In this document: positions 3,761 through 52,897 of the stretch, in pieces
Numbering within the stretch: the first letter of the stretch is position 1
Layout: each line of letters starts with the position of its first letter
Assembly (NCBI RefSeq): GCF_014205165.1
Contig: NZ_JACHMZ010000001.1
Location: 5,934,501-5,998,500, forward strand
Direction: 5' to 3'
Length of the DNA stretch: 64,000 bases
DNA from: Micromonospora carbonacea
GTDB lineage: Bacteria > Actinomycetota > Actinomycetes > Mycobacteriales > Micromonosporaceae
Notes under the pieces: generated by a model
The model's database searches: none
The model's input: only the letters and a program-made list of their open reading frames with translations
What the model was told of the DNA's origin: nothing
Made by a program: the position numbers and the translations under genes

Positions 3761-4728
3761 CGGCCACCGGGACCGCGTCCCCGCCGACCCTGCCGACCGC
3801 CCGCCGGATCACGGGCGTCGGGTTGGCCACCGCTTCCGGGGTCGCCGTCGCCGTGCAGTCGCGGATCAACGGCGAGCTGGGCGTACGCCTGGCCGACGGG
3901 ATCGCCGCCGCCGTGCTCTCGTTCGGCGTGGGCCTGCTGGTGCTGCTGGTGCTGGTGCCGGCCACCCCCGCCGGGCGGCGGGGCCTGGTCGCGCTGCGGG
4001 CGGGCCTGGCCGACGGTGCGCTGCGGCCGTGGCAGTGCCTCGGCGGCGCGTGCGGGGCGCTCTTCGTGGCCGCCCAGGGGCTGACCGTCGGCGCGCTCGG
4101 CGTGGCGGTGTTCACCGTGGCGGCGGTCGCCGGGCAGTCCGGCAGCAGCCTGCTGGTCGACCGGGCCGGGCTCGGCCCCGCCGGCCGGCAGCCGGTCACC
4201 CCGAACCGCCTGGTGGGCGCGGCGCTGACCGTGCTGGCCGTGGTGCTGGCCGTCGGCGGCCGGCTCGGCGACCCGGGCACGCTGGGCCTGGCGCTGCTGC
4301 CACTGCTGGCCGGGGTGGGCGTCGCCTGGCAGCAGGCGATGAACGGCCGGGTCCGGGCAACCACCGGCAGCGCCCTGGCCGCGACGCTCGTCAACTTCGC
4401 CGTCGGCACCGCGGTGCTGCTCGCCGCGTTCGTGGTGGAGGTGGCCGTCCGGGGCCTGCCGGGCGGCGGCCTCCCGGCCGAGCCGTGGCTCTACCTGGGC
4501 GGCCCGGTCGGCATCGTCTTCATCGCGGTGGCCGCCGCCGTCGTGCGGTTCACCGGGGTGCTGCTGCTCGGCCTGGCCACCATCGCCGGGCAGGTAGTCG
4601 GGGCCGCCCTGCTGGACGTGGCGCTGCCGACCACGGCGTCGCACCCGGGGGTGCACACGCTGCTGGGGGCCGCGCTCACCCTGTTCGCCGCGCTGCTGGC
4701 CGCCCTCGGCCCTCCGGCCCGGGGGTAA
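3757..4728 (+). CDS. DMT-family transporter (DUF606/YdcZ-like)
   Basis: 323-residue integral membrane protein made of two similar halves (each with about five hydrophobic spans), as in the EamA/DUF606 branch of the drug/metabolite transporter superfamily. Each half begins with a conserved polar patch: [11 protein letters not shown] early in half one and [11 protein letters not shown] in half two, the latter spotted about residue 190. The GTG start at 3757 overlaps the glpX stop (GTGA), giving translational coupling. Substrate is not predictable. The stop codon TAA at 4726-4728 is itself the first bases of a dispersed repeat element. Confidence 0.82.
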
Positions 4729-4777
4729 GGAAGGGCCCCCTGTTAACGCCTACGGTAGAGAGGGGCACCCTTCTCAC
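4727..4777 (+). repeat. Dispersed 3'-end hairpin element, copy A
   Basis: Copy of a roughly 50-bp element: arm 1 AAGGAAGGGCCCCCTG, core TTAACGCCTACGG, arm 2 containing CACCCTTCTCAC. The transporter stop codon overlaps the first two bases. Subtype I (arm 2 ends CTTCTCAC). Confidence 0.85.
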
Positions 4778-4808
4778 CGCAGCGGGCCCGCTCAGCGCAG
4801 CAGCCCGC

Positions 4809-5753
4809 TCAGCGCAGCGGGCGACGGTTGCCGGGGGCGGCGCGTAGGGCGGCGGCGGTCTGCGCGAGAGCGCTGCCCAGCGGGGTCGGCTCGATGCCCA
4901 GCGTAGCGGTGGCCGCGGTCGAGTCCATCAGGAAGGGCCGGTCGAACTGGTACGCCGTCTCCCGCAACTCCCGCACGAACGGGTTGACCAGCCCGCCCAG
5001 CCACAGCGCCGGGTACGGCAGCCGGGTGAGCCTGGGGGCGGGGGCGTCGGCCAGGGCGGCGGCCCGCACGGCCAGCTCACGCGCGGAGACGGCGGGCGGG
5101 CTGGGCACGTGCCAGGCCCGTCCCCAGGCGCGCTCGACGGCGGCGGCCCGCACGAGGGTGCGCGCGACGTCGTCGACGTACGTCCAGGTGTGCGGGGCGT
5201 CGAAGTCGACGGGCAGCACCACCCGGCGTCCGTCGAGCACCCGGGGCAGCAGCATCATCGGCACCGACAGCGCGCCGACGCCGAGGTAGTCGGAGCCGCG
5301 CACCTCGGTCACCCGGACCCGCCCCGCCCGGTGGGCGGCGACCGCCTCGGCCCACATCCGGTTGCGGACCTGCCCCTTCGTGCCGCCCGCCGACGTCGGG
5401 GTGTCCTCGGTCATCGGCCCGTCGACCGGCCCGTACCCGTAGAGGTTGCCGACCGTGGCGAGCACGGCCCCGGCGCGCCCGGCGGCGGTGAGCAGCGCGG
5501 CGGCCAGCGGCGGCCAGTCCGTCGCCCAGCGGTGGTAGGCCGGGTTGGCGCAGTTGTAGAGGGCGACCGCGCCGTCGGCGAGCGCGGCGAGCCGGTCCGG
5601 GTCGGCGGCGTCGGCCGCGACCCGCTCGACGGCCGGGTGCTCCGGGCCGGTGCCGCGCCGGGTGACCACCCGGACCCGCTCGCCGGCGGCCGCGAGGAGG
5701 TGGGCGGTGGCGGTGCCGACGGGTCCGGCGCCGACGATCACATGCAGCGACAT
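4809..5753 (-). CDS. NAD-dependent epimerase/dehydratase (extended SDR)
   Basis: About 314 residues. Seen: N-terminal Rossmann fingerprint HVIVGAGPVGTATAHLLA with GAGPVG as the nucleotide loop, LYNCANPAYHRW in the strand-4 region, and GNLYGYGPVDGPMTEDTP with a YGYG patch typical of atypical extended SDRs in actinobacteria. It probably acts on a nucleotide-sugar or other small hydroxyl substrate in the cytoplasm; substrate unknown. ATG at 5753 is used; a GTG three bases earlier is equally placed relative to AAAGG. It is divergent from the TetR gene at 5898, with two identical-type palindromes between them, so TetR control is likely. Confidence 0.85.
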   Translation of the reverse strand: MSLHVIVGAGPVGTATAHLLAAAGERVRVVTRRGTGPEHPAVERVAADAADPDRLAALADGAVALYNCANPAYHRWATDWPPLAAALLTAAGRAGAVLATVGNLYGYGPVDGPMTEDTPTSAGGTKGQVRNRMWAEAVAAHRAGRVRVTEVRGSDYLGVGALSVPMMLLPRVLDGRRVVLPVDFDAPHTWTYVDDVARTLVRAAAVERAWGRAWHVPSPPAVSARELAVRAAALADAPAPRLTRLPYPALWLGGLVNPFVRELRETAYQFDRPFLMDSTAATATLGIEPTPLGSALAQTAAALRAAPGNRRPLR

Positions 5754-5785
5754 CACAGGTCACCTTTCGAAGCAGGGGTACGAAA

Positions 5786-5803
5786 CAAGAGCAGCGCTCT
5801 CGA
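5786..5803. promoter_or_regulatory. Probable TetR operator, site 1
   Basis: CAAGAGCAGCGCTCTCGA, an interrupted palindrome (arms AGAGC/GCTCT), 32 bp before the SDR start. It matches site 2 (5843-5860) at 16 of 18 positions. Confidence 0.7.
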
Positions 5804-5842
5804 TCTGGCCCACCCAGCATGACGCCTCGGAGGGATCGCCGT

Positions 5843-5860
5843 CAAGAGCACTGCTCTCGA
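5843..5860. promoter_or_regulatory. Probable TetR operator, site 2
   Basis: CAAGAGCACTGCTCTCGA, a better palindrome (arms AGAGCA/TGCTCT), 37 bp before the TetR start. The near-symmetric placement of the two sites suggests autoregulation plus control of the divergent SDR gene. Confidence 0.72.
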
Positions 5861-5897
5861 AATTGATCCGCGCTCTCCGGCGTGGCAGAGTGGGGGC

Positions 5898-6590
5898 ATG
5901 CCCGCCCCCTCGATCCGCGCCCGCGTACGCGCCGAGATGCTCGACGAGATCAAGGCCGTCGCCCGCCGCCACCTCGCCACCGACGGCGGCAACCTCAGCC
6001 TGCGCGCGGTCGCCCGGGACATGGGCATGGTCTCCTCGGCCCTCTACCGCTACTTCCCGAGCCGGGACGACCTGCTCACCGCGCTGATCGTCGAGGCGTA
6101 CGACGCGCTGGGAGCCGCCGTGGAGGCGGCCGACGCGGGCGCGGACCGGCTCGACCCGCGCGGGCGCTGGCACGCCGCCTGCCGGGCGGCGCGGGGCTGG
6201 GCCCTGGCCCACCCCGCCGAGTACGCCCTGCTCTACGGCAGTCCGGTGCCCGGGTACGCCGCGCCGGACGACACGCTCGGGCCGGCGATGCGCCCGCCGG
6301 CAGTGCTGCTCGGCATCGTCCGCGACGGGCTGGCCGCCGGCCGCATCGCCGCCCCCGACCCCGGCGAGCTGCCCGAGCCGCTGCGGGCGGACCTCGCGGA
6401 GATCGCCGCCGCACTCGCCCCGGGGCTGCCCGAGGCGCTGCTCGCCCGCTGCCTGGCCGGCTGGACGCAGCTGTTCGGGCTGATCAGCTTCGAGCTGTTC
6501 GGCCGGATCGACCGCACCCTGCCGCACCGCGCCGAGTATTTCGAGCACCAGACCGGCCTGCTGGCCGACCTCATCGGCCTGCCCCGCTGA
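5898..6590 (+). CDS. TetR/AcrR-family regulator
   Basis: 230-residue DNA-binding repressor. The N-terminal helix-turn-helix is clear at about residues 30-65 (GGNLSLRAVARDMGMVSS then ALYRYFPSRDDLLTALI). The C-terminal ligand domain contains YALLYGSPVPGYAAPDDT, the signature of the WHG-type TetR C-terminal domain. ATG at 5898. Divergent from the SDR gene; two near-identical palindromes in between are the likely operators. The stop codon lies inside a GCCCCG/CGGGGC hairpin. Confidence 0.9.
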   Translation: MPAPSIRARVRAEMLDEIKAVARRHLATDGGNLSLRAVARDMGMVSSALYRYFPSRDDLLTALIVEAYDALGAAVEAADAGADRLDPRGRWHAACRAARGWALAHPAEYALLYGSPVPGYAAPDDTLGPAMRPPAVLLGIVRDGLAAGRIAAPDPGELPEPLRADLAEIAAALAPGLPEALLARCLAGWTQLFGLISFELFGRIDRTLPHRAEYFEHQTGLLADLIGLPR

Positions 6591-6597
6591 CCGGGGC
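6581..6597. terminator. Hairpin over the TetR stop codon
   Basis: GCCCCG-CTGAC-CGGGGC, perfect 6-bp arms spanning the TGA. It sits between convergent genes only 11 bp apart and could serve both. Confidence 0.45.
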
Positions 6598-6601
6598 GCG
6601 G

Positions 6602-7570
6602 TCAGGGTGCGTCGGAGGAGTGGCCCGGGAAGAGGTGGGCGGACGGGTCGATGGCGACGGCGGCGTTGTTGACCGCCGTGGCGGCCTCCCCGAAGCCCGT
6701 GGCGATGAGCCGCACCTTGCCCGGGTATTCGGTGATGTCCCCGGCGGCGAAGACCCGGGGCAGGTTCGTCGCCATCGCGCTGTCCACCAGGATGTGCCGG
6801 CGGTCCAGCCGCAGCCCCCACTCGGCGATCGGGCCGAGGTCGGCGGTGAATCCGAGGGCGGCCACCACCGTGTCCACGGGCAGCGTCTCGGGCGGTGCCC
6901 CCTTCACGGTGATCTCCGCGGCGGTCACCGCGCTGTCGCCGTGCAGCCGGGTGACCTCGGCGTTGACGACGATCCGCACGGCCGACCGCTGCACCCGGGC
7001 GACGGTCGCGGCGTGCGCGCGGAACCGCTCCCGCCGGTGCACCAGGGTCACCGAGCGGGCCAGCGGCTCCAGCGCCAGCGCCCAGTCGAACGCGGAGTCG
7101 CCCCCGCCGACGATCAGCACGTCCCGGTCGGCGAGCGCGGCCGGCTCCGGCACGAAGTAGACGATCCCGGAGCCGGTGAAGCTGTCGGCGACCGGCAGCG
7201 GACGCGGGGTGAAGCTGCCCAGGCCGCCGGTGACGACCACCGCCCCGCAGCTGAGCTGCTCGCCACCGGCGAGGCCGAGCACCGGCCCGCCGTCGGTGTG
7301 CGACAGCTTCTCGGCCCGGGTGCCGAGCAGGTATCTCGGCTGGAACGGCGCGGCCTGGGCGACGAGGTTGGCCACCAGGTCCCGCCCCTTGACGGCCGGG
7401 AACCCGGCCACGTCGAGGATCAGCTTCTCCGGGTACATCGCGGTGATCTGGCCGCCGGCCTCGGGCAGGGCGTCGACCACGGCGACGGAGAGCCCCCGGA
7501 ACCCGGCGTAGTACGCGGCGAAGAGCCCCGTCGGCCCCGCACCGATCACTGCGACATCGACCTCGGGCAT
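6602..7570 (-). CDS. Ferredoxin/flavodoxin-NADP+ reductase, thioredoxin-reductase-like
   Basis: 322-residue FAD/NADPH flavoprotein of the type 2 FNR (YumC-like) family. Seen: FAD motif DVAVIGAGPTGLFAAYYAG at the N-terminus, PEAGGQITAMYPEK, NADPH motif VLIVGGGDSAFDWAL near residue 150, and the C-terminal FAAGDITEYPGKVRLIATG. There is no CxxC between the domains, so it is not a thioredoxin reductase; it should pass NADPH electrons to ferredoxin or flavodoxin. ATG at 7570 puts the FAD motif at the terminus; an upstream GTG at 7594 lacks a ribosome binding site. Convergent with the TetR gene. Confidence 0.88.
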   Translation of the reverse strand: MPEVDVAVIGAGPTGLFAAYYAGFRGLSVAVVDALPEAGGQITAMYPEKLILDVAGFPAVKGRDLVANLVAQAAPFQPRYLLGTRAEKLSHTDGGPVLGLAGGEQLSCGAVVVTGGLGSFTPRPLPVADSFTGSGIVYFVPEPAALADRDVLIVGGGDSAFDWALALEPLARSVTLVHRRERFRAHAATVARVQRSAVRIVVNAEVTRLHGDSAVTAAEITVKGAPPETLPVDTVVAALGFTADLGPIAEWGLRLDRRHILVDSAMATNLPRVFAAGDITEYPGKVRLIATGFGEAATAVNNAAVAIDPSAHLFPGHSSDAP

Positions 7571-7693
7571 GGCGTACCGTCGCTTTCCGCTCACGGATCA
7601 ACGCGTGCTGAAGCCGACGGTAGGCGCGCGCCGGGTCCGGATCAAGCACCGTCCCACGTCGAACGCGGGCCGGGCGCGGCCGCCCGGCGGCGG

Positions 7694-7744
7694 GTGAGAA
7701 GGACGCCCTTCTCTGCCGCAGGCGTTGACAGGGGGCCCTTCCTT
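7694..7744 (-). repeat. Dispersed 3'-end hairpin element, copy B
   Basis: Read on the minus strand: AAGGAAGGGCCCCCTG, core TCAACGCC, arm 2 GTCCTTCTCAC (subtype I). The rhomboid stop codon TAA (7743-7745) overlaps its first bases, as in copy A. Confidence 0.85.
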
Positions 7745-8399
7745 ACGCCCGCAGGGGTGGGGTGTCCAGGTCGTACGGGTCGTCCTCGGCCCGGCGTCGC
7801 CGGAACAGGATCGCGGCGACCACGCCGCCGACCAGCCCAAACAGGTGGCCCTGCCAGGAGATCTGCTCGTCGGTGGGGAGGATCCCGAGCAGCTGCCAGC
7901 CGTAGAGCAGGCCGACCAGCAGCACGACGGCGAAGTTCCACCAGCTCCGCTCGACCACGCCCCGGGTGAGCAGGACGCCCAGGTAGCCGAAGATGACGCC
8001 GCTGGCCCCGACCACGACCGAGTTGGGTGAGCCGGTGAACCACACGCCCAGCCCGCTGACCAGCACGATGACCAGGGTGGACCACATGAACCGGCGGAAT
8101 CCGGCGGCGAGCACGAAGGTGCCGAGCAGGATCAGCGGCACGCTGTTGCTGTAGAGGTGGTTGAAGTCGGCGTGCAGGAACGGCGAGAAGAGCACCCCGT
8201 CGAGCCCGTCGATGTGCCGCGGGATGATGCCGCCGGCCAGGTCGAGGTCGATGCCGAGACCGGCGTCGAGGGCCTCGACCAGGAAGAGCACCGGCACGAC
8301 GGCGCACATGGCGACGAAGGCCCGGCCGATCGAGGCGTAGAAGGCCTCGGTGCCGAAGCGTCGCGGGTCGCCGCCCGGGGGGCCGTCGTGCAGGGTCAT
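7743..8399 (-). CDS. Rhomboid intramembrane serine protease
   Basis: 218 residues with about six hydrophobic spans. Seen: HADFNHLYSNSVPL in an early span, the catalytic serine motif VVGASGVIFGYLGV (GASG, about residue 130), and the catalytic histidine in WQGHLFGLVGG near the end. This is the Ser-His dyad of active rhomboids, which cut membrane proteins within or near the bilayer. ATG at 8399 is preferred to a TTG two codons earlier. C-terminal tail is short and charged. Substrate unknown. Confidence 0.92.
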   Translation of the reverse strand: MTLHDGPPGGDPRRFGTEAFYASIGRAFVAMCAVVPVLFLVEALDAGLGIDLDLAGGIIPRHIDGLDGVLFSPFLHADFNHLYSNSVPLILLGTFVLAAGFRRFMWSTLVIVLVSGLGVWFTGSPNSVVVGASGVIFGYLGVLLTRGVVERSWWNFAVVLLVGLLYGWQLLGILPTDEQISWQGHLFGLVGGVVAAILFRRRRAEDDPYDLDTPPLRA

Positions 8400-8463
8400 G
8401 CCCAAACAGCTATCAGCATTCCCGCCCGACCGCCACCCGGGCGGCGGGACCGTCGGGAAACGA

Positions 8464-8506
8464 CGACGGCGGGGTGGGCGCCGGGGAGGCGCCCGCCCCG
8501 CCGTCG
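8464..8506 (-). terminator. Strong stem-loop terminator
   Basis: 19-bp arms (8464-8482 and 8488-8506) around a 5-nt loop, with one G-U type mismatch. It lies 30 nt after the stop of the wall hydrolase gene, between it and the rhomboid gene on the same strand. Confidence 0.8.
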
Positions 8507-8535
8507 CGGTGCGCGGTCGAGCGGTGCTCAGCGGA

Positions 8536-9234
8536 TCAGTACCAGCCCTCGCTCTGCGACTGGCTCCACGCCGAGCACGGCGAGCTGTAGCGGCCCTTGA
8601 TGTAGCCGAGGCCCCACTTGATCTGGGTGGCCGGGTTGGTCTCCCAGTCGTCGCCGACCGAGGCCATCTTGCTGCCCGGCACCGCCTGCGGGATGCCGTG
8701 CGCGCCGGAGGAGGAGTTGTGCGCCTTGGGGTTCCAGCCGCTCTCCTTGGTCCAGAGCTTGTCCAGGCACGGGAACTGGTCGATGCCGAAGCCGGCGTCG
8801 ATCATCAGCGCGCAGCCGATCTTCCGGTTGCCGCCGTACTCGTTGCACGAGGCGGGGATCGGGCCGTCGTACGGCTTGCTCGCCTTGGCCGCCGCCTTCT
8901 CGGCGGCCTTCTTCGCCGCGGCCTCGCGCTCGCGCTTGCGGGACGCCGCCTCGGCCTCGCGGGCCCGGTCGGCGGCCTCCTTGGCCGCCGCGGCGGCCCG
9001 CTTCTCGGCCTGGTACTCGGCGGCCCGCTTCTCGGCGGAGACGATCCGGTGCTGGGCCTGCCGCTCGCGCTGGTAGTCGAACTCGGCCTGGTCCACCTGG
9101 AGGCCGACCTGCGCGGTCAGGCCCTGTTGCTGGGTTTCCCGGTCTTCGCCCAGATAGAAGCCGCCGGCAACGCCCACGGAGAGCAGCGCGACGGCGGCGG
9201 TACGGGCGCCGAACCGGCTCCACAGCCGACTCAC
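8536..9234 (-). CDS. Secreted lytic transglycosylase-like wall hydrolase
   Basis: 232 residues. Seen: short cytoplasmic start, one hydrophobic signal/anchor (TAAVALLSVGVAGGFYLG), a long Ala/Lys/Glu/Arg coiled-coil stretch (about residues 40-125), then an SLT-type domain with LWTKESGWNPKAHNSSSGAH (Glu as likely catalytic acid) and WETNPATQIKWGLGYIKGRY. It should cleave peptidoglycan at the cell surface. GTG at 9234 has GAAGGGA 7 nt upstream. The 230-nt leader is GC-rich and foldable and starts near a Crp-like site; a strong terminator follows, so it is transcribed alone. Confidence 0.88.
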   Translation of the reverse strand: MSRLWSRFGARTAAVALLSVGVAGGFYLGEDRETQQQGLTAQVGLQVDQAEFDYQRERQAQHRIVSAEKRAAEYQAEKRAAAAAKEAADRAREAEAASRKREREAAAKKAAEKAAAKASKPYDGPIPASCNEYGGNRKIGCALMIDAGFGIDQFPCLDKLWTKESGWNPKAHNSSSGAHGIPQAVPGSKMASVGDDWETNPATQIKWGLGYIKGRYSSPCSAWSQSQSEGWY

Positions 9235-9460
9235 GAAGTGGTCCCTTCGTCGGGGGCAAGGACACGGCGCGACCCTGGCCCGAGGAGGGACCCGGCCCGC
9301 GCCGTGAGCGCCCCGACCCTGCCGGTCGCAGCCGACGCACTCGCCCGAGCCGCTCCCCGCCGTCGGGTGCCCGACGGGAGCGGATGATCTTGGCGGTGCG
9401 TGGACGCTCGATGGACACCATTGCGCACAGTGAGGCTGATGGGAAACCACCAGCCCCAAT

Positions 9461-9476
9461 TGTGATCTGGGCCACA
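9461..9476. promoter_or_regulatory. Crp/Fnr-like binding site
   Basis: TGTGATCTGGGCCACA matches the TGTGA-N6-TCACA consensus at 9 of 10 fixed positions. It lies upstream of the wall hydrolase gene. A related sequence, TGTGATCTAGGGCAAC, lies upstream of the GH25 lysozyme at 27870-27885. Confidence 0.45.
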
Positions 9477-9519
9477 GGCAGAATCACGCTAAAGGGTGAC
9501 TAGACAGGCATGATCTCGG

Positions 9520-11156: not shown

Positions 11157-11195
11157 CCGGCCGGGATGCATGCCCCCTGCGCGCATCCCGGCCGG
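11157..11195. terminator. Hairpin, 13-bp perfect stem
   Basis: CCGGCCGGGATGC and GCATCCCGGCCGG around a 13-nt loop, downstream of the gene ending at 11276. Confidence 0.6.
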
Positions 11196-22457: not shown

Positions 22458-22596
22458 GCCGAACCTCCTCGCCAGAAACGGACGAGCTGACCGTAGCGGG
22501 TCGACGCCCCCGCGCGGATCAACCGGTGCGGTGGTTCCCGCGCGTGCCGCGCGGCGACCGTCTGCGGTGGGGCCTGCGGCCCCCGCCGGCCCGGGT

Positions 22597-22647
22597 GTGA
22601 GAAGGGAACCCTTCTCTACCGTAGGCGTTAACAAGGGGCCCTTCCTT
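22597..22647 (-). repeat. Dispersed 3'-end hairpin element, copy C
   Basis: Minus strand: AAGGAAGGGCCCCTTG, core TTAACGCCTACGG, arm 2 GAGAAGGGTTCCCTTCTC, which is itself a perfect inverted repeat (subtype I). It starts one base after the birA stop codon. Confidence 0.88.
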
Positions 22648-23523
22648 TCACCGCAGGTGCAGGACGTCGCCCGCCGCCAGGGTGCGTGGGCCGGCCGGCG
22701 TGTCGACCAGCAGCCGGCCGTCGGCGTCCACGCCGGTCGCGGTGCCGGTCACCTCCTGCCCGCCGGGCAGTAGCACCCGCACCGACCGGCCGACCGTCGC
22801 GCAGGCCGCCACGTACGCCTCGCGCAGGCCGCTGGCCACCGCGTCGCCACCGGCGCAGCGCCAACGGTCGTACCAGTCGGCGACGGAGCGCAGCAGGGCG
22901 CGCAGCAGCGGGTCCCGGTCGGTGGCGGCGGCACCGGCGAGCTGGAGCGAGGTGGCCGGCAGGCCGGTCGGGTTCGCCGGCAGCTCGTCGGCGCGCAGGG
23001 TGACGTTGAGGCCGATGCCGAGGACGATCGCCGAGGGCTGCTCCAGCGTCGGGCCGGGCACCGCCTCGGCCAGGATGCCGGCGCACTTGGCGTCGCCGAT
23101 CAGCAGGTCGTTGGGCCACTTGAGGGCGGCGTCCAGCTCGGCGAGCCGGGCCACCGCCTCGACGAGCGCGACGCCGGCGAGCAGCGGCAGCCAGCCGTAC
23201 CCGGTGGCGGGGACCGCCGGCCAGCCGCGCTCCGCGACGGCCTCGCCGGGCCGCAGCAGCACGCTGGCCGCGATGCCGGCGCGGGCCGGCGACTGCCAGA
23301 CCCGGTCGCGTCGCCCCCGACCTGCGGTCTGCCGCTCGGCGACCACCACGAGGCCCTCCGGCTCGCCGGACCGGGCCGCCTCCGCCACGTCCGCGTTGGT
23401 CGATCCGGTCTCGGCGCGCAGCTCCAGGCGGGCCCACGGGCCGTGCGGGGCGGTCAGCGCGCGGCGTAGCCGGGCCGCCGACAGCGGCGGGCGGTCCAGG
23501 TCGGTGTACGGCGAGCCGGGCAT
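22648..23523 (-). CDS. birA: Biotin-[acetyl-CoA-carboxylase] ligase
   Basis: 291 residues. It activates biotin as biotinyl-AMP and attaches it to the lysine of biotin carboxyl carrier domains, here most likely the AccA protein at 39208. Seen: ETGSTNADVAE, the biotin-loop motif GRGRRDRVW, and LKWPNDLLIGDAK. There is no N-terminal HTH, so it is a group I ligase and not the biotin repressor. ATG at 23523. It is divergent from accD, the same order as in mycobacteria. Confidence 0.95.
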   Translation of the reverse strand: MPGSPYTDLDRPPLSAARLRRALTAPHGPWARLELRAETGSTNADVAEAARSGEPEGLVVVAERQTAGRGRRDRVWQSPARAGIAASVLLRPGEAVAERGWPAVPATGYGWLPLLAGVALVEAVARLAELDAALKWPNDLLIGDAKCAGILAEAVPGPTLEQPSAIVLGIGLNVTLRADELPANPTGLPATSLQLAGAAATDRDPLLRALLRSVADWYDRWRCAGGDAVASGLREAYVAACATVGRSVRVLLPGGQEVTGTATGVDADGRLLVDTPAGPRTLAAGDVLHLR

Positions 23524-23745: not shown

Positions 23746-25329
23746 GTGACCAACGAGACCGGGATCAACATCCACAGCACGGCGGGCAAGCTGGCGGACC
23801 TGGAGCGACGGGTCGACGAGGCGGTGCACGCCGGGTCGGCGCGCGCGGTCTCCAAGCAGCACGCCCGGGGTAAGAAGACGGCACGGGAGCGGATCGAGCT
23901 GCTGCTCGACGAGGGGTCCTTCGTCGAGCTGGACGAGTTCGCCCGGCACCGGTCTACCAACTTCGGCCTGGACCGCACCCGCCCGTACGGCGACGGGGTG
24001 ATCACCGGCTACGGCACGGTCGACGGCCGGCAGGTCTGCGTCTTCGCGCAGGACTTCACGGTCTTCGGCGGCTCCCTCGGTGAGGTCTTCGGCGAGAAGA
24101 TCGTCAAGGTGATGGACCTCGCCATGAAGATCGGCTGCCCGGTGATCGGCATCAACGACTCGGGCGGGGCCCGCATCCAGGAGGGCGTGGCGTCCCTCGG
24201 GCTCTACGGCGAGATCTTCTTCCGCAACGTGCGGGCCAGCGGCGTCATCCCGCAGGTCTCCCTGATCATGGGCCCGTGCGCGGGCGGCGCGGTCTACTCC
24301 CCGGCGGTCACCGACTTCACCGTGATGGTCGACCAGACCTCGCACATGTTCATCACCGGCCCCGACGTGATCAAGACGGTCACCGGCGAGGACGTGGGCA
24401 TGGAGGAGCTGGGCGGGGCGCGCACCCACAACGCGCGCAGCGGCAACGCGCACTACCTCGGCGCGGACGAGGACGACGCGATCGAGTACGTCAAGGCGCT
24501 GCTGTCGTACCTGCCGTCGAACAACCTGGACGAGCCGCCGGTCGTCGACGCCCCGGCCGACCTGGCGGTGAGCGACGCCGACCGGGAGCTGGACACGCTG
24601 ATCCCCGACTCGGCCAACCAGCCGTACGACATGCACCGGGTCGTCGAGCACGTCCTCGACGACGGGGAGTTCCTGGAGGTCCAACCGCTGTACGCGCAGA
24701 ACATGGTGGTCGGCTTCGGCCGCGTCGAGGGCCGCCCGGTCGGCGTGGTGGCCAACCAGCCGATGCACTTCGCCGGCACCCTCGACATCGCCGCGTCGGA
24801 GAAGGCCGCCCGATTCGTGCGCACCTGCGACGCGTTCAACATCCCCGTGCTGACCTTCGTGGACGTCCCCGGTTTCCTGCCCGGCACCGGCCAGGAGTGG
24901 GACGGCATCATCCGCCGGGGCGCGAAGCTCATCTACGCGTACGCCGAGGCGACCGTCCCGAAGGTCACCGTGATCACCCGCAAGGCGTACGGCGGGGCGT
25001 ACGACGTGATGGGCTCCAAGCACCTCGGCGCGGACCTGAACTTCGCCTGGCCGACCGCGCAGATCGCGGTGATGGGCGCGCAGGGCGCGGTGAACATCCT
25101 GTACCGGCAGGAGCTGACCGCCGCCGAGGACCCGGCCGCCGTGCGCGCCGAGAAGATCGCCGAGTACGAGGACACCCTCGCCAACCCGTACATCGCCGCC
25201 GAGCGGGGGTACGTCGACTCGGTGATCCCGCCGCACGAGACGCGTACCCAGATCGTCCGGGCGCTGCGGGTGCTGCGCACCAAGCGCGAGACGCTCCCGC
25301 CGAAGAAGCACGGCAACATCCCGCTCTAG
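23746..25329 (+). CDS. accD: Acyl-CoA carboxylase beta (carboxyltransferase) subunit
   Basis: 527 residues, typical of actinobacterial AccD/PccB. It moves the carboxyl group from carboxybiotin to acyl-CoA (propionyl- and/or acetyl-CoA). Seen: N-terminal [20 protein letters not shown], oxyanion-hole motifs [11 protein letters not shown] and (second half) [20 protein letters not shown], and [19 protein letters not shown]. Position matches accD5 of M. tuberculosis; the Asp that sets propionyl preference would need alignment. Here accE and accA are displaced by inserts (6.3 and 13.9 kb downstream). Confidence 0.95.
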
Positions 25330-25333
25330 ATGC

Positions 25334-25387
25334 AAGGAAGGGCCCCCTGTTAACGCATTCTGCATAGCAGGGGCCCCTTCCAAACGC
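25334..25387 (+). repeat. Dispersed 3'-end hairpin element, copy D
   Basis: AAGGAAGGGCCCCCTG, core TTAACGCATTCTGCATA, arm 2 CAGGGGCCCCTTCC (subtype II). The arms pair at 13 of 14 positions. It begins 4 bases after the accD stop codon. Confidence 0.88.
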
Positions 25388-36537: not shown

Positions 36538-36541
36538 GGCT

Positions 36542-36593
36542 GTTTGGAGGGGGCCCCTCCTATACCGAAAGCGTTAACAAGGGGCCCTTCCTT
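36542..36593 (-). repeat. Dispersed 3'-end hairpin element, copy E
   Basis: Minus strand: AAGGAAGGGCCCCTTG, core TTAACGCTTTCGGTATAG, arm 2 GAGGGGCCCCCTCC (subtype II). It starts 18 bases after the ABC permease stop, the widest gap of the seven copies. Confidence 0.85.
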
Positions 36594-36611: not shown

Positions 36612-37367
36612 TCAGCGGACGCTGCGGGCGAACTGGCGGGCGGCCCAGGCGACGCCGGCGGCGGCCAGCACCGCGATGATGCCGAGGCCCTGCCAGACCT
36701 TGTCGTTGCCGAGGTCGCCGGCGAACAGGGCCCGGGTGCCGTCGACGGCCCAGGAGAACGGGTTCCACTCGGCGATGCCCTGGAGCCAGCCGGGGGCGAA
36801 GGTGAGCGGCAGCAGGATGCCGGAGAGCAGCAGCACCGGCTGGGCGACGGTGTTCATCAGCGGGGCGAGCGCGTCCTCGCTCTTGACCTTGAGCGCGACG
36901 CCGTAGGAGACGGCCGAGGTCATCAGCGCGATGAGGGCGAGCATCAGGTACGCCAGCAGCAGGTCGCCGATGAACACGCGCAGCTCGAACAGGAGCGCGA
37001 GCACGGTGATGATGACGGCCTGGGCGAGCAGGGACACGACGTCGCGCAGGGACCGGCCGAGCAGCAGCGCGAGCCGGCTGACCGGGGTGACCCGGGACCG
37101 TTCGATGACCCCGGCGCGCAGCTCGGCGATCAGGCCGAAGCCCTGGAAGAGGCCGCCGAAGATGGCCAGCAGGACCAGCAGGCCGGGCACGAAGATCTTG
37201 TACGCCTCGGCCTGGGTCGGCGCGTTCAGCGCCGGCTTGAGCAGCGGGGCGAAGAGGAGCAGGTACATCACCGGCTGGAAGACTCCGACGAAGACCCAGA
37301 CCGGGTTGCGGAGCAGGAGCCGCGTCTGGCGTTGGAAGACGAGCCAGGTGTCGCGGGCGAACTTCAT
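36612..37367 (-). CDS. ABC-2 type exporter permease
   Basis: 251 residues, six spans, DrrB-like. Seen: RNPVWVFVGVFQPVMYLLLF in the first span, the cytoplasmic ERSRVTPVSRLALLLGRSLR coupling helix, and the conserved SGILLPLTFAPGWLQGIAEW and NPFSWAVDGTRALFAGD. It pairs with the ATPase 17 bp upstream to export a drug or lipid. ATG at 37367 has GGAG 8 nt upstream. Followed by repeat copy E. Confidence 0.92.
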   Translation of the reverse strand: MKFARDTWLVFQRQTRLLLRNPVWVFVGVFQPVMYLLLFAPLLKPALNAPTQAEAYKIFVPGLLVLLAIFGGLFQGFGLIAELRAGVIERSRVTPVSRLALLLGRSLRDVVSLLAQAVIITVLALLFELRVFIGDLLLAYLMLALIALMTSAVSYGVALKVKSEDALAPLMNTVAQPVLLLSGILLPLTFAPGWLQGIAEWNPFSWAVDGTRALFAGDLGNDKVWQGLGIIAVLAAAGVAWAARQFARSVR

Positions 37368-39207: not shown

Positions 39208-40959
39208 GTGCGCAAGGTACTCATCGCCAACCGAGGCGAGATCGCCGTCCGCGTCATCCGCGCCTGCCGCGACGCCGGCCTGGGCAGCGTCGCCGTCTAC
39301 GCCGACTCCGACCGGGACGCGCTGCACGCCACCCTGGCCGACGAGGCGTACGCCCTGGGCGGCGACACCGCCGCCGAGACGTACCTGCGGATCGACAAGC
39401 TGATCGCCATCGCCGCGCAGGCCGGCGCGGACGCCGTCCACCCCGGGTACGGCTTCCTCTCCGAGAACGCCGACTTCGCCCAGGCCGTCCTCGACGCGGG
39501 CCTGACCTGGATCGGCCCGACCCCGCAGGCGATCCGCGACCTCGGCGACAAGGTCACCGCCCGGCACATCGCCCAGCGGGCCGGCGCGCCCCTGGTCCCC
39601 GGCACCCCGGACCCGGTCGCCGGCCACGACGAGGTGACCGCGTTCGCGGTCGAGCACGGCCTGCCCGTGGCCATCAAGGCCGCCTTCGGCGGCGGCGGTC
39701 GCGGCCTCAAGGTGGCCCGCACCCTGGAGGAGATCCCGCACCTGTTCGAGTCGGCCACCCGCGAGGCGGTCGCCGCGTTCGGCCGGGGCGAGTGCTTCGT
39801 CGAGCGGTACCTCGACCAGCCCCGGCACGTCGAGGCGCAGGTCCTCGCCGACCAGCACGGCAACGTGATCGTCGTCGGCACCCGGGACTGCTCGCTCCAG
39901 CGCCGGCACCAGAAGCTCGTCGAGGAGGCGCCCGCGCCGTTCCTCACCGACGCCCAGCGCGCCCAGATCCACGACAGCGCCAAGGCGATCTGCCGGGAGG
40001 CCGGCTACCACGGCGCGGGCACGGTGGAATACCTGGTCGGCGCGGACGGCACGATCTCCTTCCTGGAGGTCAACACCCGCCTCCAGGTCGAGCACCCGGT
40101 CACCGAGGAGACCGCCGGCATCGACCTGGTCCGCGAGCAGTTCCGCATCGCCGACGGCGAGCGGCTGCGGCTGACCGAGGACCCGACGCCGCGCGGGCAC
40201 GCCATCGAGTTCCGGATCAACGGCGAGGACCCGGGCCGCAACTTCCTGCCCGCACCCGGCACGGTCACCGCACTGCGGCTGCCCACCGGCCCCGGCGTCC
40301 GGGTGGACGCCGGCATCTCGGCCGGCGACGTGATCGGCGGCAACTTCGACTCGCTGTTGGCCAAGGTGATCGTGACCGGCGAGACCCGCACCGAGGCCCT
40401 GGAGCGGGCCCGGCGGGCGCTGGACGAGATGGTCGTCGAGGGGATGGCCACGGCGCTGCCGTTCCACCGCCTCGTGGTCCGCGACCCCGCGTTCACCGCC
40501 GCGCCGTTCACCGTGCACACCCGGTGGATCGAGACCGAGTTCGACAACACCGTGCCGCCGTTCACCGCCGTCGCCGGCCCCGCCGAGGGCCCGGCCGAAC
40601 GCGAGACGGTCGTGGTCGAGGTGGGCGGCAAGCGGCTGGAGGTGACGCTGCCCGCCGGCCTCGGCGCGGGCACGGTCGCCGCCGCGCCCGCCGCGCGGAA
40701 GGCGGCCCGCCGGGTCGGCGGGGCCAAGGCCGGCGCGGCGGTCGACGGCGACGCGCTCACCTCGCCGATGCAGGGCACGATCGTGAAGATCGCCGTCGCC
40801 GACGGGGACACCGTCGCCGAGGGCGACCTGGTCGTCGTGCTGGAGGCGATGAAGATGGAGCAGCCGCTGCACGCGCACAAGGCGGGCACGGTCAGCGGGC
40901 TGTCCGCCGAGGTCGGCGCGGTCATCACCGCCGGCGCCCCCATCTGCACGATCGCCTGA
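39208..40959 (+). CDS. accA: Acyl-CoA carboxylase alpha: biotin carboxylase + BCCP
   Basis: 583 residues. The biotin carboxylase domain (1-450) shows [36 protein letters not shown], the glycine loop [14 protein letters not shown], and [17 protein letters not shown] short linker leads to the biotinyl domain, [13 protein letters not shown] and [17 protein letters not shown], with the biotin lysine in AMKME. It carboxylates biotin with bicarbonate and ATP for AccD. GTG at 39208 has GGGAGGAG upstream. Position matches accA3 of M. tuberculosis. Confidence 0.96.

Positions 40960-40964: not shown

Positions 40965-42579
<1,615 letters not shown>

Positions 42580-46675: not shown

Positions 46676-46679
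<4 letters not shown>
44940..46679 (+). CDS. ABC exporter half-transporter 1 (degenerate catalytic site)
   Basis: 579 residues: six-span exporter domain (about 1-310) and an ATPase domain. Walker A is [12 protein letters not shown], the signature [16 protein letters not shown] is canonical, but Walker B reads [12 protein letters not shown] with Asp where the catalytic Glu should be. That is the non-catalytic subunit pattern of heterodimeric exporters (TM287/288, BmrCD, LmrCD types). GTG at 44940 has GGAG 9 nt upstream and overlaps the MarR gene. Confidence 0.93.
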
Positions 46680-48715
<2,036 letters not shown>

Positions 48716-48731
48716 GCGTCGTGACATTGGC

Positions 48732-48762
48732 GGGCCGCCGGCACGGGACCTGCCGGCGGCCC
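48732..48762 (+). terminator. Stem-loop after the ABC exporter operon
   Basis: GGGCCGCCGGCA and TGCCGGCGGCCC, perfect 12-bp arms with a 7-nt loop, 17 nt past the stop. Confidence 0.8.
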
Positions 48763-48985
48763 TGGCGGCCCGGACGTCGGGAACGAGGGCCCGACGTGCG
48801 GGGCCGCGCCCCGACAACGGTACGCCGCTCGTCACGGACGCGCCGACCGCCTCCACCCGTTCGGGGAGGTTACCGGCCCGCCGGCCGTGTCGGCGGTCAC
48901 CCGCGGCCGGGGTGGGCTGCGGTGACGTCGGGCAGGCCGGCAGGCTCGGTGCATCCGATCGGCCGGACCCGGCGAGGTGGGAGTC

Positions 48986-49594
48986 GTGCCTGAGCTGCTG
49001 ACCAACGTCGCCTCGCCGCTCTGGGCCTATCTGGTCCTGCTCGGCCTGCTGGCGGTCGACGCCTTCGTGCCGGTCGTACCCACGCAGGTCTTGATGATCA
49101 CCGGCGGCGCGCTCACCGTGTACGGCGGGCTGAGCCTGCCGGTGACCATCGGCGTCGGCGCCCTCGGCGTCTTCGTCGGCGACCTCGCCTGCTACCTGCT
49201 GGGCCGGCGCGCGCCGGACCGCCGGCCGGCGACGACCACCGCGCCCGGCCGGGCCCGCCGGATCGCCGGCCGGGTGACCCGGGGGCTGCGCCAACCGGGG
49301 CCGCTGGTGATCCTGCTCTGCCGCTTCGTGCCCGGCGGCCGGATGGCCGCCTGCTTCGCCGCCGGCCGCAGCCGGTACCCCTACCGGCTGTTCATCACGT
49401 ACGAGGCGCTGGCTGCGGCCGGCTGGGCCACCTACGGGACGCTGATCGGGCACCTCGGCGGCACGGCGCTGACCGAGTCGGCGTGGCAGCTGCTGGTGAT
49501 CGCCGGGGCGGCGGCGGCCGGCTTCGCGGCGGCCGGCTGGGCGATGACCGCCTTCGGCACCCGCCGCGCCCGCCCCGAACCCCCGACCGACTGA
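48986..49594 (+). CDS. DedA-family membrane protein
   Basis: 202 residues. Seen: the DedA core pattern VDAFVPVVPTQVLMITGGAL, GVFVGDLACYLLGRR and RFVPGGRMAACFAAGRSRYP (the conserved RF-x-PGxR motif), with about five spans. Family members flip undecaprenyl phosphate or other lipids; the exact substrate is unknown here. GTG at 48986 has GAGGTGGGAG directly upstream and is preferred over the GTG nine bases earlier. Confidence 0.88.
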   Translation: MPELLTNVASPLWAYLVLLGLLAVDAFVPVVPTQVLMITGGALTVYGGLSLPVTIGVGALGVFVGDLACYLLGRRAPDRRPATTTAPGRARRIAGRVTRGLRQPGPLVILLCRFVPGGRMAACFAAGRSRYPYRLFITYEALAAAGWATYGTLIGHLGGTALTESAWQLLVIAGAAAAGFAAAGWAMTAFGTRRARPEPPTD

Positions 49595-49626
49595 CCTGGC
49601 GCGGGGTGCCGGGAGAGCCGGCTCGG

Positions 49627-51030
49627 CTACTCCAGCTCGTGGAGCATGAGCTGACGGGCCGCCTCGGTGATCGAGCCCGACAGGCTCGGATAGATGGTGA
49701 TGGTCTGGGCCAGCTCGTTGACCGTGAGGTTGTTCTCCACCGCCATCGTGATCGGCAGGATCAGCTCGCTGGCCTTCGGGGCCACCACCACGCCGCCGAT
49801 CACCTGGCCGCTGGCCGGGCGGCAGAACAGCTTCACGAAGCCGTCGGCGAGGTCGTCCATCTTCGCCCGCGCGTTGCCCGACAGCGGCAGCATCACCTGA
49901 CGGGCCGGGGTCCGGCCCGCGTCCACCTCGTCCTGGGAGACGCCGACGGTGGCCAGCTCCGGGTCGGTGAAGACGTTCGCGGCGACCGTACGCAGCCGCA
50001 GCGGCCGGACCGCCTCGCCGAGCGCGTGCCACATCGCGATCCGGCCCTGCATCGCGGCGACGCTGGCCAGCGGCAGCACGCCCGTGCAGTCGCCGGCCGC
50101 GTAGACGCCGGGGACGTTGGTGCGCGACACCCGGTCGACGGTGACGTAGCCGCCCCGGGCCAGCTCCACGCCGTATTCCGCGAGGCCGAGGCCCGCGGTG
50201 TTGGGGATCGAGCCGACCGCGATGAGCGCGTGCGAGCCCTGCACCAGCCGGCCATCGGCCAGCTCCACCTCCACCCCGTCGGCGGTACGCCGCACGCCCT
50301 CGGCGCGGGAGTTGTTGAGGATCGTCATGCCCCGGGACCGGAACACCCGCTCGATCGCCATGGCGGCGTCGGCGTCCTCGTGCGGCATCACCCGGTCCCG
50401 GCTGGAGACGAGGGTGACCGGGACCCCCATCGCCAGGTACGCGCTGGCGAACTCGGCGCCGGTGACGCCGGAGCCGACCACGATCAGGTGCTCGGGCAGC
50501 TCGGGCAGGTCGTACACCTGCCGCCAGGTCAGGATGCGCTCGCCGTCGGGCACGGCCGTGGGAAGCTGGCGCGGGGTGGCGCCGGTGGCGACCAGCACGG
50601 TCGACGCGTCGATCGAGTGCTTCCCGGAGCCGTCGGCCGGGGTGACGACGACGCGGTGGGTGTGGCCCAGCATGTCCTCGCCGAGCCGGGCCGTGCCGGC
50701 GACGAAGGTGACGCCGGCCTTGACCAGCTTCGCGTGGATGTCGGCGGACTGGGCCAGGGCGAGCCGCTTGACCCGCTCGTGCACGGTCCGCGCGTCGACG
50801 GTGACCGCCTCCAGCCCGTCGGAGTGCACCCCGAACTCCTCGGTGTCCCGGTATCCGGTGACCACCTCGGAGCTGGCGATGAACGTCTTCGACGGTACGC
50901 AGTCGGACAGCACGCACGCGCCGCCGGCCCCCTCGGCCTCCACCACGGTGACATCGGCGTCCAACTGGGCGGCGACCAGGGCCGCCTCGTACCCGGCCGG
51001 CCCACCGCCGATGATCACGATCTGGCTCAC
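49627..51030 (-). CDS. lpdA: NAD(P)H-quinone dehydrogenase, flavoprotein disulfide reductase family
   Basis: 467 residues. Seen: FAD motif IVIIGGGPAGYEAALVAAQL, GGACVLSDCVPSKTFIAS (a widely spaced Cys pair, C-V-L-S-D-C, in place of the CxxxxC of lipoamide dehydrogenase), the NAD(P) motif LIVVGSGVTGAEFASAYLAM, and VYAAGDCTGVLPLASVAAMQ. The C-terminal dimer domain lacks the His-Glu lipoamide dyad. This matches the LpdA/Rv3303c type that reduces quinones. GTG at 51030. Divergent from the cyclotransferase gene, as in M. tuberculosis. Confidence 0.93.
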   Translation of the reverse strand: MSQIVIIGGGPAGYEAALVAAQLDADVTVVEAEGAGGACVLSDCVPSKTFIASSEVVTGYRDTEEFGVHSDGLEAVTVDARTVHERVKRLALAQSADIHAKLVKAGVTFVAGTARLGEDMLGHTHRVVVTPADGSGKHSIDASTVLVATGATPRQLPTAVPDGERILTWRQVYDLPELPEHLIVVGSGVTGAEFASAYLAMGVPVTLVSSRDRVMPHEDADAAMAIERVFRSRGMTILNNSRAEGVRRTADGVEVELADGRLVQGSHALIAVGSIPNTAGLGLAEYGVELARGGYVTVDRVSRTNVPGVYAAGDCTGVLPLASVAAMQGRIAMWHALGEAVRPLRLRTVAANVFTDPELATVGVSQDEVDAGRTPARQVMLPLSGNARAKMDDLADGFVKLFCRPASGQVIGGVVVAPKASELILPITMAVENNLTVNELAQTITIYPSLSGSITEAARQLMLHELE

Positions 51031-51123
51031 AGCTGTCGCCCCTCGTCCATGCTCACAGTGACTTTCTTCTCCCCGACACGTCCGACACGCACCGTCGTAT
51101 TCTCCCCCACCCGTCCGCCGGGC

Positions 51124-51129
51124 TATCGT
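51124..51129 (+). promoter_or_regulatory. -10 box, leaderless cyclotransferase
   Basis: TATCGT, 7 nt before GTG 51137; no ribosome binding site. Confidence 0.5.
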
Positions 51130-51136
51130 CATCGCC

Positions 51137-51592
51137 GTGCGTCATTACGCCGCCTACGGCTCAAACCTGGATCCCGCCCGGATGCGCGCCTACTGCCCGC
51201 ACTCCCCGATGGTCGGCGTCGGCTGGCTGGAGGGCTGGCGGCTCACCTTCGCCGGCGAGGGTGTGATCGGCTGGGAGGGCGCGGTCAGCACCGTCGTCGA
51301 GTCCCCCGGCGACCGGGTGTTCGTGGCGCTCTACGACATCCACCCCTACGACGCCGCCCAGCTCGACGAGATCGAGGGGGTGACCTCCGGGACGTACCGG
51401 AAGCTGCACGTCCGGGTCTCCACCCTCGACGGGGACGTGACCGCCTGGGTCTACGTCTTCGACGGCTACGAGGGCGGCCTGCCGACGGCCTGGTACCTGT
51501 CGGAGATCGCCAACGCCGCCGAGAAGGCGGGCGCGCCCGACGACTACGTCAGCGAGCTGCGGTCCCGCCCCACCGGCACCGCGTCGGCATAG
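51137..51592 (+). CDS. Gamma-glutamylcyclotransferase-like (AIG2/GGCT fold)
   Basis: 151 residues. The N-terminal YAAYGSNLDPARMRAYCPHS is the classic YGSNL substrate loop; ALYDIHPYDAAQLDEIEGVT carries the likely catalytic Glu (DEIEG); VYVFDGYEGGLPTAWYLSEI follows. Family enzymes release 5-oxoproline from gamma-glutamyl compounds; actinobacterial substrate unproven. Position next to lpdA equals Rv3304. Confidence 0.9.
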   Translation: MRHYAAYGSNLDPARMRAYCPHSPMVGVGWLEGWRLTFAGEGVIGWEGAVSTVVESPGDRVFVALYDIHPYDAAQLDEIEGVTSGTYRKLHVRVSTLDGDVTAWVYVFDGYEGGLPTAWYLSEIANAAEKAGAPDDYVSELRSRPTGTASA

Positions 51593-51630
51593 CGCGTCTC
51601 CCACGCCTCCAAGTCTGCTCTGTCCCGGAT

Positions 51631-51649
51631 CGGGCCGCACGGCGGCCCG
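51631..51649. terminator. Stem-loop after the cyclotransferase gene
   Basis: CGGGCCGC-ACG-GCGGCCCG, perfect 8-bp arms, 38 nt past the stop and between convergent genes. Confidence 0.6.
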
Positions 51650-51751
51650 GCACCGGGTCGCCTGGCCCACACCGCCGGGCCGCCCGTCACCCGGCGGCGG
51701 CGGGCCCGTCACACAGCGGCGGGGTTCCTGCCCGGGGGCGGCCGGTTCCCG

Positions 51752-52714
51752 TCACGCGGCGGCGGCGGGGACAGTGCGCTCGTACATGTCGGCCCAGTGC
51801 TGCTCACGCAGCCCCACGGAGTGGTAGAGCGTCGCCGGGGAGGTCGGGTTGGCCAGGTCCACGCCGAGGCCGGCGCGCCGCCGCCCCTTGGCCGCGTAGA
51901 CCGCGAAGGCCCGCCGCAGCAGCGCGGCCCCCACGCCGCGCCGCCGGTGCGCCGGCAGCACCGACAGGGTGCGCACCCAGCCCATGTCCTGCGCCAACGC
52001 CTGGTCGGACGACTGCAACGCGCCGGCCGGCTCACCGTCGACCTCGGCGACGAACCACTCGTCCCAGGTCCTGGCGTACGCGGGCAGGTGCTCGCGCCAC
52101 TGGTCGTACCCGACCGGCTCGTAGTCCAGGGTGTCCCGGAACGCCGTGTCGAAGATCCGGTGGAACAGCCGCAGGTCCGCCTCGTCGTCGGCGCGCAGCG
52201 GACGGACCGTCACCCCCGGCGGCAGCGGCGGCTCGGCGGGCAGGTCGGCCAGCTCCCGGCTCATCCGCAGATACCGCTTCACCAGGGTGAACCCGGCCCC
52301 GGCCAGCTCGGCCGCCCACCGGGTCTCCGGCCGGTACGCCGAGACGCGGACGGTCAGCGCGGGCAGGCCCCGCTCGGCGGCCCGCTCGGCGACCCGGTCC
52401 AGCATCCGGGCGAGCAGCGGGGCGCGGACCGCCGCGCCGTGCTCCGGGTCGACGAGGACGTCGACGAACTCCCGGCCGACCCCGGTCGGGTTGTCCACCA
52501 GGGACCAGGCGACGAGCCGCCCCTGCGGGTCGCTGACCAGCCAGGAGTCGCGCGCCGGGTCGAAGTGGGGTGCCGTCAGCGCGGCCTCGACGTCCTCGGC
52601 GTCGAAGTCCGGGTGGCCGATCGAGAAGGTGTCGGCGGCGTGCACGACCGCGAGGATCGCGGGTACGTCGTCGAGGGTGGGGCGGCGTGCCGCCCAGCCG
52701 GCGGGAAGGGTCAC
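51752..52714 (-). CDS. Tandem GNAT acetyltransferase
   Basis: 320 residues with two GNAT domains. The first (about 1-150) starts ARRPTLDDVPAILAVVHAAD. The second (about 165-315) has VRPLRADDEADLRLFHRIFD and an intact acetyl-CoA loop LSVLPAHRRRGVGAALLRRA (RRRGVG), followed by LANPTSPATLYHSVGL. The first domain has no clear Q/RxxGxG/A loop and may be structural. Acceptor substrate unknown; mycothiol synthase has the same two-domain plan but different motifs. GTG at 52714 is preceded by a GC-rich region without clear ribosome binding site. Confidence 0.85.
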   Translation of the reverse strand: MTLPAGWAARRPTLDDVPAILAVVHAADTFSIGHPDFDAEDVEAALTAPHFDPARDSWLVSDPQGRLVAWSLVDNPTGVGREFVDVLVDPEHGAAVRAPLLARMLDRVAERAAERGLPALTVRVSAYRPETRWAAELAGAGFTLVKRYLRMSRELADLPAEPPLPPGVTVRPLRADDEADLRLFHRIFDTAFRDTLDYEPVGYDQWREHLPAYARTWDEWFVAEVDGEPAGALQSSDQALAQDMGWVRTLSVLPAHRRRGVGAALLRRAFAVYAAKGRRRAGLGVDLANPTSPATLYHSVGLREQHWADMYERTVPAAAA

Positions 52715-52846
52715 GGGGCGATCCTGGCAGCCACCCCGGGGCCCACGCCCCCCATTTTCTCTCCCCCGGCTCCCCCTGACGCGTCGACGCCGGGCCTCGC
52801 CCGCCGCGCCTCATCCCGCCGCATCCGCCGCGCCGCGCTCGGCGTG

Positions 52847-52897
52847 GTGAGAAGGGGACCGTTCTCTACCTCAGGCGTTAGGAAGGGGCCCTTCCTT
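52847..52897 (-). repeat. Dispersed 3'-end hairpin element, copy G (inside a gene end)
   Basis: Minus strand: AAGGAAGGGGCCCCTTCC, core TAACGCCTGAGG, arm 2 CCCCTTCTCAC (subtype I). Unlike the other copies it overlaps a coding end: the last residues QGRAPS and the stop TAA of the 52878-53627 gene lie within it. Confidence 0.85.

Follow-up and report, generated by a model that had tools for sequence, protein, structure and literature searches.

The 64,000-nucleotide stretch of Micromonospora carbonacea analysed here (the window, part of a 7.53-Mb chromosome; genome label G000) carries seven copies of a short palindromic repeat, each located at or near a gene's stop codon (Table 1). The nearest named relative of this genome is M. 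haikouensis, with 95% identity over six proteins. A first-pass annotation had reported seven copies, two subtypes of their second arm, and a placement between -20 and +18 nt from a same-strand stop codon with the first arm facing the gene. In the window, all of this was confirmed: the seven copies were recovered and align without gaps over 54 columns (mean column identity of 86%), both subtypes exist, and every copy lies on the strand of its gene with arm 1 gene-proximal. Searching for AAGGAAGGGSCCC with up to two mismatches gave 12 window matches against 3.5 expected by shuffling, a count of 12 being reached in 0 of 100 shuffles; some of these matches are right arms on the opposite strand. 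The window had no match in Rfam at the gathering threshold.

Table 1. Copies of the palindromic element in the 64-kb window and the gene that each one follows.
Copy	Subtype	Position	Strand	R1 (bits)	Upstream gene and its stop codon	Distance from stop (nt)
A	a	4727..4780	+	77.2	exporter gene (YdcZ-type) 3757-4728; TAA 4726-4728 overlaps left end	-2
B	a	7691..7744	-	71.7	rhomboid-domain gene; stop overlaps left end	-2
C	a	22594..22647	-	76.5	birA-type gene 22648-23523; element abuts TGA	0
D	b	25334..25387	+	77.5	carboxyltransferase (pccB-type) gene 23746-25329; TAG 4 nt upstream; next gene convergent	+4
E	b	36540..36593	-	72.4	ABC-2 transporter gene 36612-37367; stop 18 nt upstream; next gene convergent	+18
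F	b	40965..41018	+	75.9	biotin carboxylase gene 39208-40959; TGA 5 nt upstream	+5
G	a	52844..52897	-	71.5	HTH_67 gene 52878-53627; terminates at TAA within element	-20

The repeat extends far beyond the window. A covariance model built on the seven copies was searched against the complete genome, and the 150 of 972 candidates that were scored all had E <= 1.1e-12. Additionally, the 13-base left arm AAGGAAGGGCCCC has 184 exact matches in the genome, compared with 1 for a reversed-pattern control. Individual copies were characterized in a sample of 1.664 Mb (1-1.2 Mb, 2.8-2.9 Mb, the window and 6.0-6.3 Mb), where 118 model matches correspond to 93 elements once overlapping matches on the same palindrome are merged. 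Extrapolation from the 72 13-mers in the sample gives about 238 elements in the genome, a rough figure given the uneven density: 77 elements were found in the first 1.2 Mb versus 6 in 6.0-6.3 Mb, and the first 2.1 Mb holds 83 of the first 100 listed 13-mer places, the other 17 falling at 2.1-4.27 Mb.

The unit measures about 54 bp, or about 62 bp including its outer GYGY...AACRC ends, which were recognized by eye as weak flanks (GYGY on the left, AACRC on the right). A short stretch of variable sequence separates the left arm and loop, AAGGAAGGGCCCCYTGTTAACGC, from the right arm, which is itself variable and comes in two main forms, GAGAAGGG..CCCTTCTCAC in subtype a and GGAAGGGGCCCCTTCCTAAC with its relatives in subtype b. 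Among the 90 copies that align without gaps, positions 1-23 are conserved in at least 89%, except for positions 6 and 14; arm 1 together with TTAACGC is near-invariant, while arm 2 drifts. Arm 2 is preceded by GTAG in 32 of these copies and by GTAT in 24; a GTAG tetranucleotide is found at the foot of the hairpin in repetitive extragenic palindromic (REP) elements. The predicted folding of subtype b (61 copies) is strong, with a mean folding energy of -27.9 kcal/mol and a mean z of -4.4 (z < -2 in 51 copies); copy D reaches about -31 kcal/mol. For subtype a (32 copies), the mean is -21.1 kcal/mol with a mean z of -1.8 (z < -2 in 12 copies). In other genera, paired changes of the arms were seen by eye, such as GGGCACC with GGTGCCC in genome G109, and the palindrome itself seems to have been kept over long times, as DNA or RNA. 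A composite form of about 80 bp was also observed, consisting of arm 1, an inner hairpin and an inverted arm 1 at a spacing of 66-67 bp (G000:C1 334944-335023, 824461-824539 and 6032372-6032450).

The distance and orientation of each element relative to stop codons were tabulated using genes predicted by a custom script trained on the G000 genome, and random placement of most copies was not found. A same-strand upstream gene is present for 74 of the 93 elements, and 64 elements start between -20 and +9 nt from the same-strand stop with arm 1 gene-proximal; random intergenic placement puts a mean of 5.5 and a maximum of 14 in this interval (2000 simulations). The commonest distances are -2, seen in 21 copies, and +5, seen in 18; another 5 copies lie at -20. 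Of the 64 near-stop copies, 26 are overlapped by the TAA stop of their gene, and TAA is the stop of 80 of the 1408 predicted genes; the element thus overlaps 26 of the 80 TAA stops in the sample, which is relevant to annotation. At element-free gene ends of the same genome, strong hairpins begin at varied distances past the stop, between 0 and about 60 nt (samples of 120). When intergenic regions 40 nt or longer are considered, the element occupies 40 of the 187 that lie between convergent genes, 43 of the 573 between codirectional genes and 6 of the 234 between divergent genes, and 31 elements in codirectional regions follow the orientation of the genes versus 12 opposed to it (p 0.005). The stop-codon register and the orientation bias are strong, but they are not absolute beyond the window. 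The earlier statement that the element is always found at gene 3' ends and in gene orientation therefore stands inside the window and not genome-wide, where 19 of 93 elements have no same-strand upstream gene.

A survey of 250 Micromonosporaceae genomes, in which 23 candidates were scored per genome, gave at least one covariance-model match in 88 genomes, which represent 15 of the 44 genera; some had no more than 1-3 weak matches. One genome in each of six other genera contained at least 101 to 150 unmerged matches with the same consensus; among 30 loci from these genera, 16 were judged by eye to be in the reading orientation, and 9 of the 16 have the stop of a long frame at -20 to +9. Outside the family, an exact 22-base pattern was absent from 391 sampled members of the class, a search that divergent relatives would escape, and of 24 genomes from other families one had a single 13-mer. 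Among the genomes searched, the repeat is found only in Micromonosporaceae.

Copy number differs widely within the genus, with 0 to 198 13-mers in 36 Micromonospora relatives. In 50 genomes taken from 80 named ones, the matches to AAGGARGGGCMCC are bimodal, with 68-245 in 22 genomes (high-copy) and 0-22 in 28 (low-copy). Even sister species differ, as in M. zingiberis (180) versus M. radicis (8). M. sp. U21 and M. inaquosa are a further pair of relatives with high and low copy number, and M. haikouensis and M. chalcea are examples of high-copy species. On a quick tree of six proteins (77 rows, supported by SH-like approximate likelihood ratio tests only, with locus L161 left out), the high or low state of 50 rows, the window included, requires 15 changes, of which 12 are forced by well-supported branches. 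Shuffling the labels gave a mean of 16.6 changes, with 136 of 500 shuffles as low as 15. A comparison of gene content between sister species with approximately 180 and 8 copies should allow the presumed responsible factor to be found, and finding it would render the origin of REP-like repeats without a REP-associated tyrosine transposase (RAYT) testable.

The comparison of orthologous loci with and without the element, which the first-pass annotation had proposed, was carried out at two slots of the window and between two related genomes. At the birA stop, the slot of copy C, 12 named species carry an intact element, each belonging to the high-copy set of 22, and a decayed remnant was recognized by eye in five species, all low-copy. 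At the pccB stop, the slot of copy D, the element occurs in 13 species, all high-copy, one copy being degenerate with its stem largely kept (by eye). Of the 43 element-free pccB loci of Micromonospora or Verrucosispora, 29 carry a strong hairpin of other sequence in this slot and 19 have z < -2; in 11 element-bearing loci, 6 strong hairpins and 9 with z < -2 were scored, using a hairpin score (loop of at most 14, one mismatch) that may undervalue the element. The sequence of these ordinary pccB hairpins varies freely.

Furthermore, syntenic 400-kb stretches of two high-copy genomes, G035 and G020, contain 17 and 13 elements, respectively. Eighteen of these lie near a same-strand stop; one has no ortholog, and the other 17 occupy 12 orthologous slots, of which 5 are shared and 7 unshared. 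Identity within the five shared pairs, measured on the variable part, is 0.66-0.85, no higher than that of each copy to others of its own genome (0.68-0.83). Each genome also has its own loop dialect: CCTCCGGTAG occurs in 9 of 13 copies in G020, 1 of 17 in G035 and 0 of 93 in G000, and a WTTCTG-type loop is present in 31 of 93 G000 copies and in none of those in G020 or G035. A third relative, G002, which offered 1 and 3 orthologs, was omitted, and the first 1.2 Mb of G000 is not syntenic with the first 0.4 Mb of G020, G035 or G002, so that no slot comparison was possible there. The pattern of slots and dialects is what re-insertion or conversion gives. Bimodal copy number, the difference between sister species, genome dialects and unshared slots together strongly support a turnover of copies between related species, in partial support of the mobile REP-like or miniature inverted-repeat transposable element (MITE)-like alternative raised in the first-pass annotation.

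Other palindromic repeats were observed at the same slots. A second family, CGCGATCTTGCACTT...AAGTGCAAGATCGCG, occupies the post-stop birA slot in other Micromonospora species (L114, L117, L119, L126, L149, L157, L162, L191 and others, near 10.9 kb), with between 0 and 107 copies of its 12-mer per genome across 37 genomes (G000-G036) and 36 in G000. A third family, GATCCGCGCAACTTCAGGGAA...TTCCCTGAAGTTGCGCGGATC, follows pccB in some species (L114, L116, L129 and L191, near 7.2-8.3 kb). In three Asanoa loci (L165, L169 and L178), pccB is followed by a near-perfect palindrome with GTTAGGAA ends, perhaps a divergent relative. The second and third families were found with direct patterns; k-mer repeat discovery over whole loci was swamped by coding sequence.

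Among copies near a stop (-51 to +60, n = 70), subtype b accounts for 32 of 39 at convergent slots versus 13 of 31 at codirectional ones (Fisher p 0.0009), and the folding energy is lower at convergent than at codirectional slots (p 0.0002). The preference of subtype b for convergent slots, together with the hairpins at pccB, suggests a role in termination at sites where opposing transcripts meet, and the hairpin is accordingly a predicted transcription terminator.

Several known systems share features with this element. REP elements are associated with RAYT transposases (PMC2817692) and prefer convergent genes (PMC1525189). The present repeat is similar to REPs and to the bacterial interspersed mosaic elements (BIMEs) that they form in being a short extragenic palindrome with more than 100 copies per genome, a preference for convergent genes, composite inverted pairs, genome-specific variants and turnover. 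It differs in being a two-arm 54-bp unit in stop-codon register, often overlapping TAA, and in the matter of the transposase, which in REP/BIME systems is a RAYT related to IS200/IS605. A Y1 (RAYT-type) match was found in 1 of 12 high-copy genomes (at least 50 13-mers) versus 11 of 25 other Micromonospora genomes (Fisher p 0.058). The single match in G000 is a tnpA of IS200/IS605 type whose adjoining gene has Pfam OrfB_IS605 domains, and the earlier remark that no RAYT-type transposase is visible holds. Mobilization by a RAYT was rejected on these grounds; the repeat resembles REPs yet in most high-copy genomes checked does not come with the transposase that defines them. The IS200/IS605-type pair itself, a Y1 transposase with a divergent OrfB_IS605/TnpB-type gene, lies at L111 1486-3163 (G000:C1 ~6.098 Mb). 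The idea of a transposon bounded by facing copies was likewise set aside: in the regions read, which cover part of the genome, the five genes examined between facing pairs 0.7-1.2 kb apart include no transposase and encode chromosomal-type domains (VTT, in G020; MOSC; EI24; squalene-hopene-cyclase-like; AbiEi_4).

Similarly to MITEs, the element is short and non-coding, with terminal inverted repeats and large changes in copy number; unlike for MITEs, no parent transposon with the same ends was seen in the regions read. With the DNA uptake sequences (DUS) of Neisseria and the uptake signal sequences (USS) of Pasteurellaceae it shares an invariant core, inverted repeats at gene ends and dialects, but it is a longer cassette with a gene-orientation bias. 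DUS copies per genome also outnumber those of the element. DUS are arranged as terminators and are enriched in the core genome (PMC2397512); for the element, a core-genome over-representation like that of DUS and USS is suggested by chromosome position. The intrinsic terminators of actinobacteria include an I-shaped type. As with these, the stop is followed by a GC-rich hairpin that lacks a U-run, and such hairpins hold the pccB slot in element-free species; in contrast to them, the element is a single repeat family and not a set of unrelated hairpins. The covered parts of the Actinoplanes genome paper do not mention such a repeat (PMC3364876), and no description of the element was found in a literature search of titles and abstract openings that took in few subscription papers.

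Taken as a whole, the data make it fairly probable that a REP-like repeat, spreading without a RAYT, settles at stop codons and functions there as a terminator, the mobile element and the terminator module probably being one and the same thing. Copies of one dispersed palindromic family would arrive at a gene's stop codon or be rewritten there, the left arm facing the gene and the copy often providing the stop codon. The hairpin would then act as a transcription terminator or 3' end, mainly between convergent genes, taking the place of an ordinary terminator hairpin. A trans-acting factor presumably disperses or maintains the copies, and its loss would let them decay.

A number of observations weigh against this reading. 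Off-rule copies are not rare: 6 of the 19 elements without a same-strand upstream gene lie in divergent intergenic regions, the arm-2 end stands at an opposite-strand stop in 10 of 93 (by the same distance measure), and in G035 and G020 the same-strand stop lies within -60 to +80 for 18 of 30 elements and is missing there for 12. The birA copy appears inherited among the closest relatives (the window, M. haikouensis and ATCC 39149). By the same hairpin score, strong hairpins are rare at birA, with 5 in 39 element-free and 1 in 17 element-bearing or decayed loci, so a terminator is not necessarily what occupies this slot. For the variable part, mean identity is barely higher within genomes (0.715, 0.819 and 0.773) than between them (0.699-0.776), one unshared G035/G020 slot resembles the replacement of a different hairpin (by eye), and the slots compared showed no clean empty site or target duplication. 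Y1 searches and the genes between facing copies yielded no mobilizer, and a pure terminator would not require a near-invariant arm 1 and loop. In addition, subtype a folds modestly (mean z -1.8), covariation between the arms was sought among the copies of this genome and none was found, and the gene-sense RNA folds better than the antisense in 39 copies and worse in 54 (n = 93). With neither covariation nor a sense-strand advantage, pairing in the mRNA is not clearly the selected feature. The earlier idea of a spreading 3'-UTR (untranslated region) terminator module is likewise partly supported, its terminator role indirectly, by convergent subtype b and the pccB hairpins.

Much of the evidence was also considered in the light of other explanations. 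A purely selfish REP- or MITE-like repeat, whose mobilizer favours gene ends or stops and whose hairpin has no host function but does least harm there, would agree with the turnover and loop dialects, the near-perfect and composite palindromes, the arms that do not covary, and the decayed birA remnants seen by eye in five low-copy genomes. We regard it as rather unlikely, given the concentration of the strong-hairpin subtype at convergent slots and the fact that at pccB the element takes the position held by other hairpins in most element-free relatives. The near-invariance of arm 1 and TTAACGC next to a drifting arm 2, the bimodal copy number with decay, and the decrease of copies away from the chromosome ends (83 versus 17 among the first 100 listed) could instead reflect a signal under molecular drive, bound sequence-specifically or used in uptake and resembling the Neisseria DUS; a lineage-specific receptor or binding protein would then keep arm 1 and the loop invariant, and its loss would lead to decay. 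Such a signal is improbable for a 54-bp cassette with gene-orientation bias, as opposed to a free 10-12-mer.

Two further explanations concern the hairpin alone. That it is an mRNA 3' stabilizer or RNase processing site instead of a terminator is suggested by its position adjoining the stop codon and by the weaker subtype a being commoner at codirectional slots; both strands fold alike, however, and convergent enrichment fits termination better, which makes this role very improbable. Vertically inherited terminators that share their sequence through selection alone would account for the shared position of the element at birA and pccB in several species, but hardly for the dialects of individual genomes, the slots that are not shared, the 180 and 8 copies of sister species, or the ordinary pccB-slot hairpins, whose sequence varies freely; the probability of this explanation is slight in the extreme.

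A more far-reaching form of the main reading, that of a REP-like terminator repeat, may be proposed tentatively: a new, RAYT-independent machinery of the Micromonosporaceae that writes a stop-plus-terminator cassette precisely at gene ends and in gene orientation, and whose repeated loss leads to the joint decay of hundreds of copies. If the main reading is right, a bacterial family would swap its gene-end signals through a dispersing repeat in stop-codon register, and this dispersal would proceed without the Y1 transposase on which REPs depend.

Finally, the intergenic 12-mer GAGCCTACCGGC was observed at 37 places in 26 of 80 loci (L112-L191), repeated within 11 of them, and is possibly a regulatory motif.

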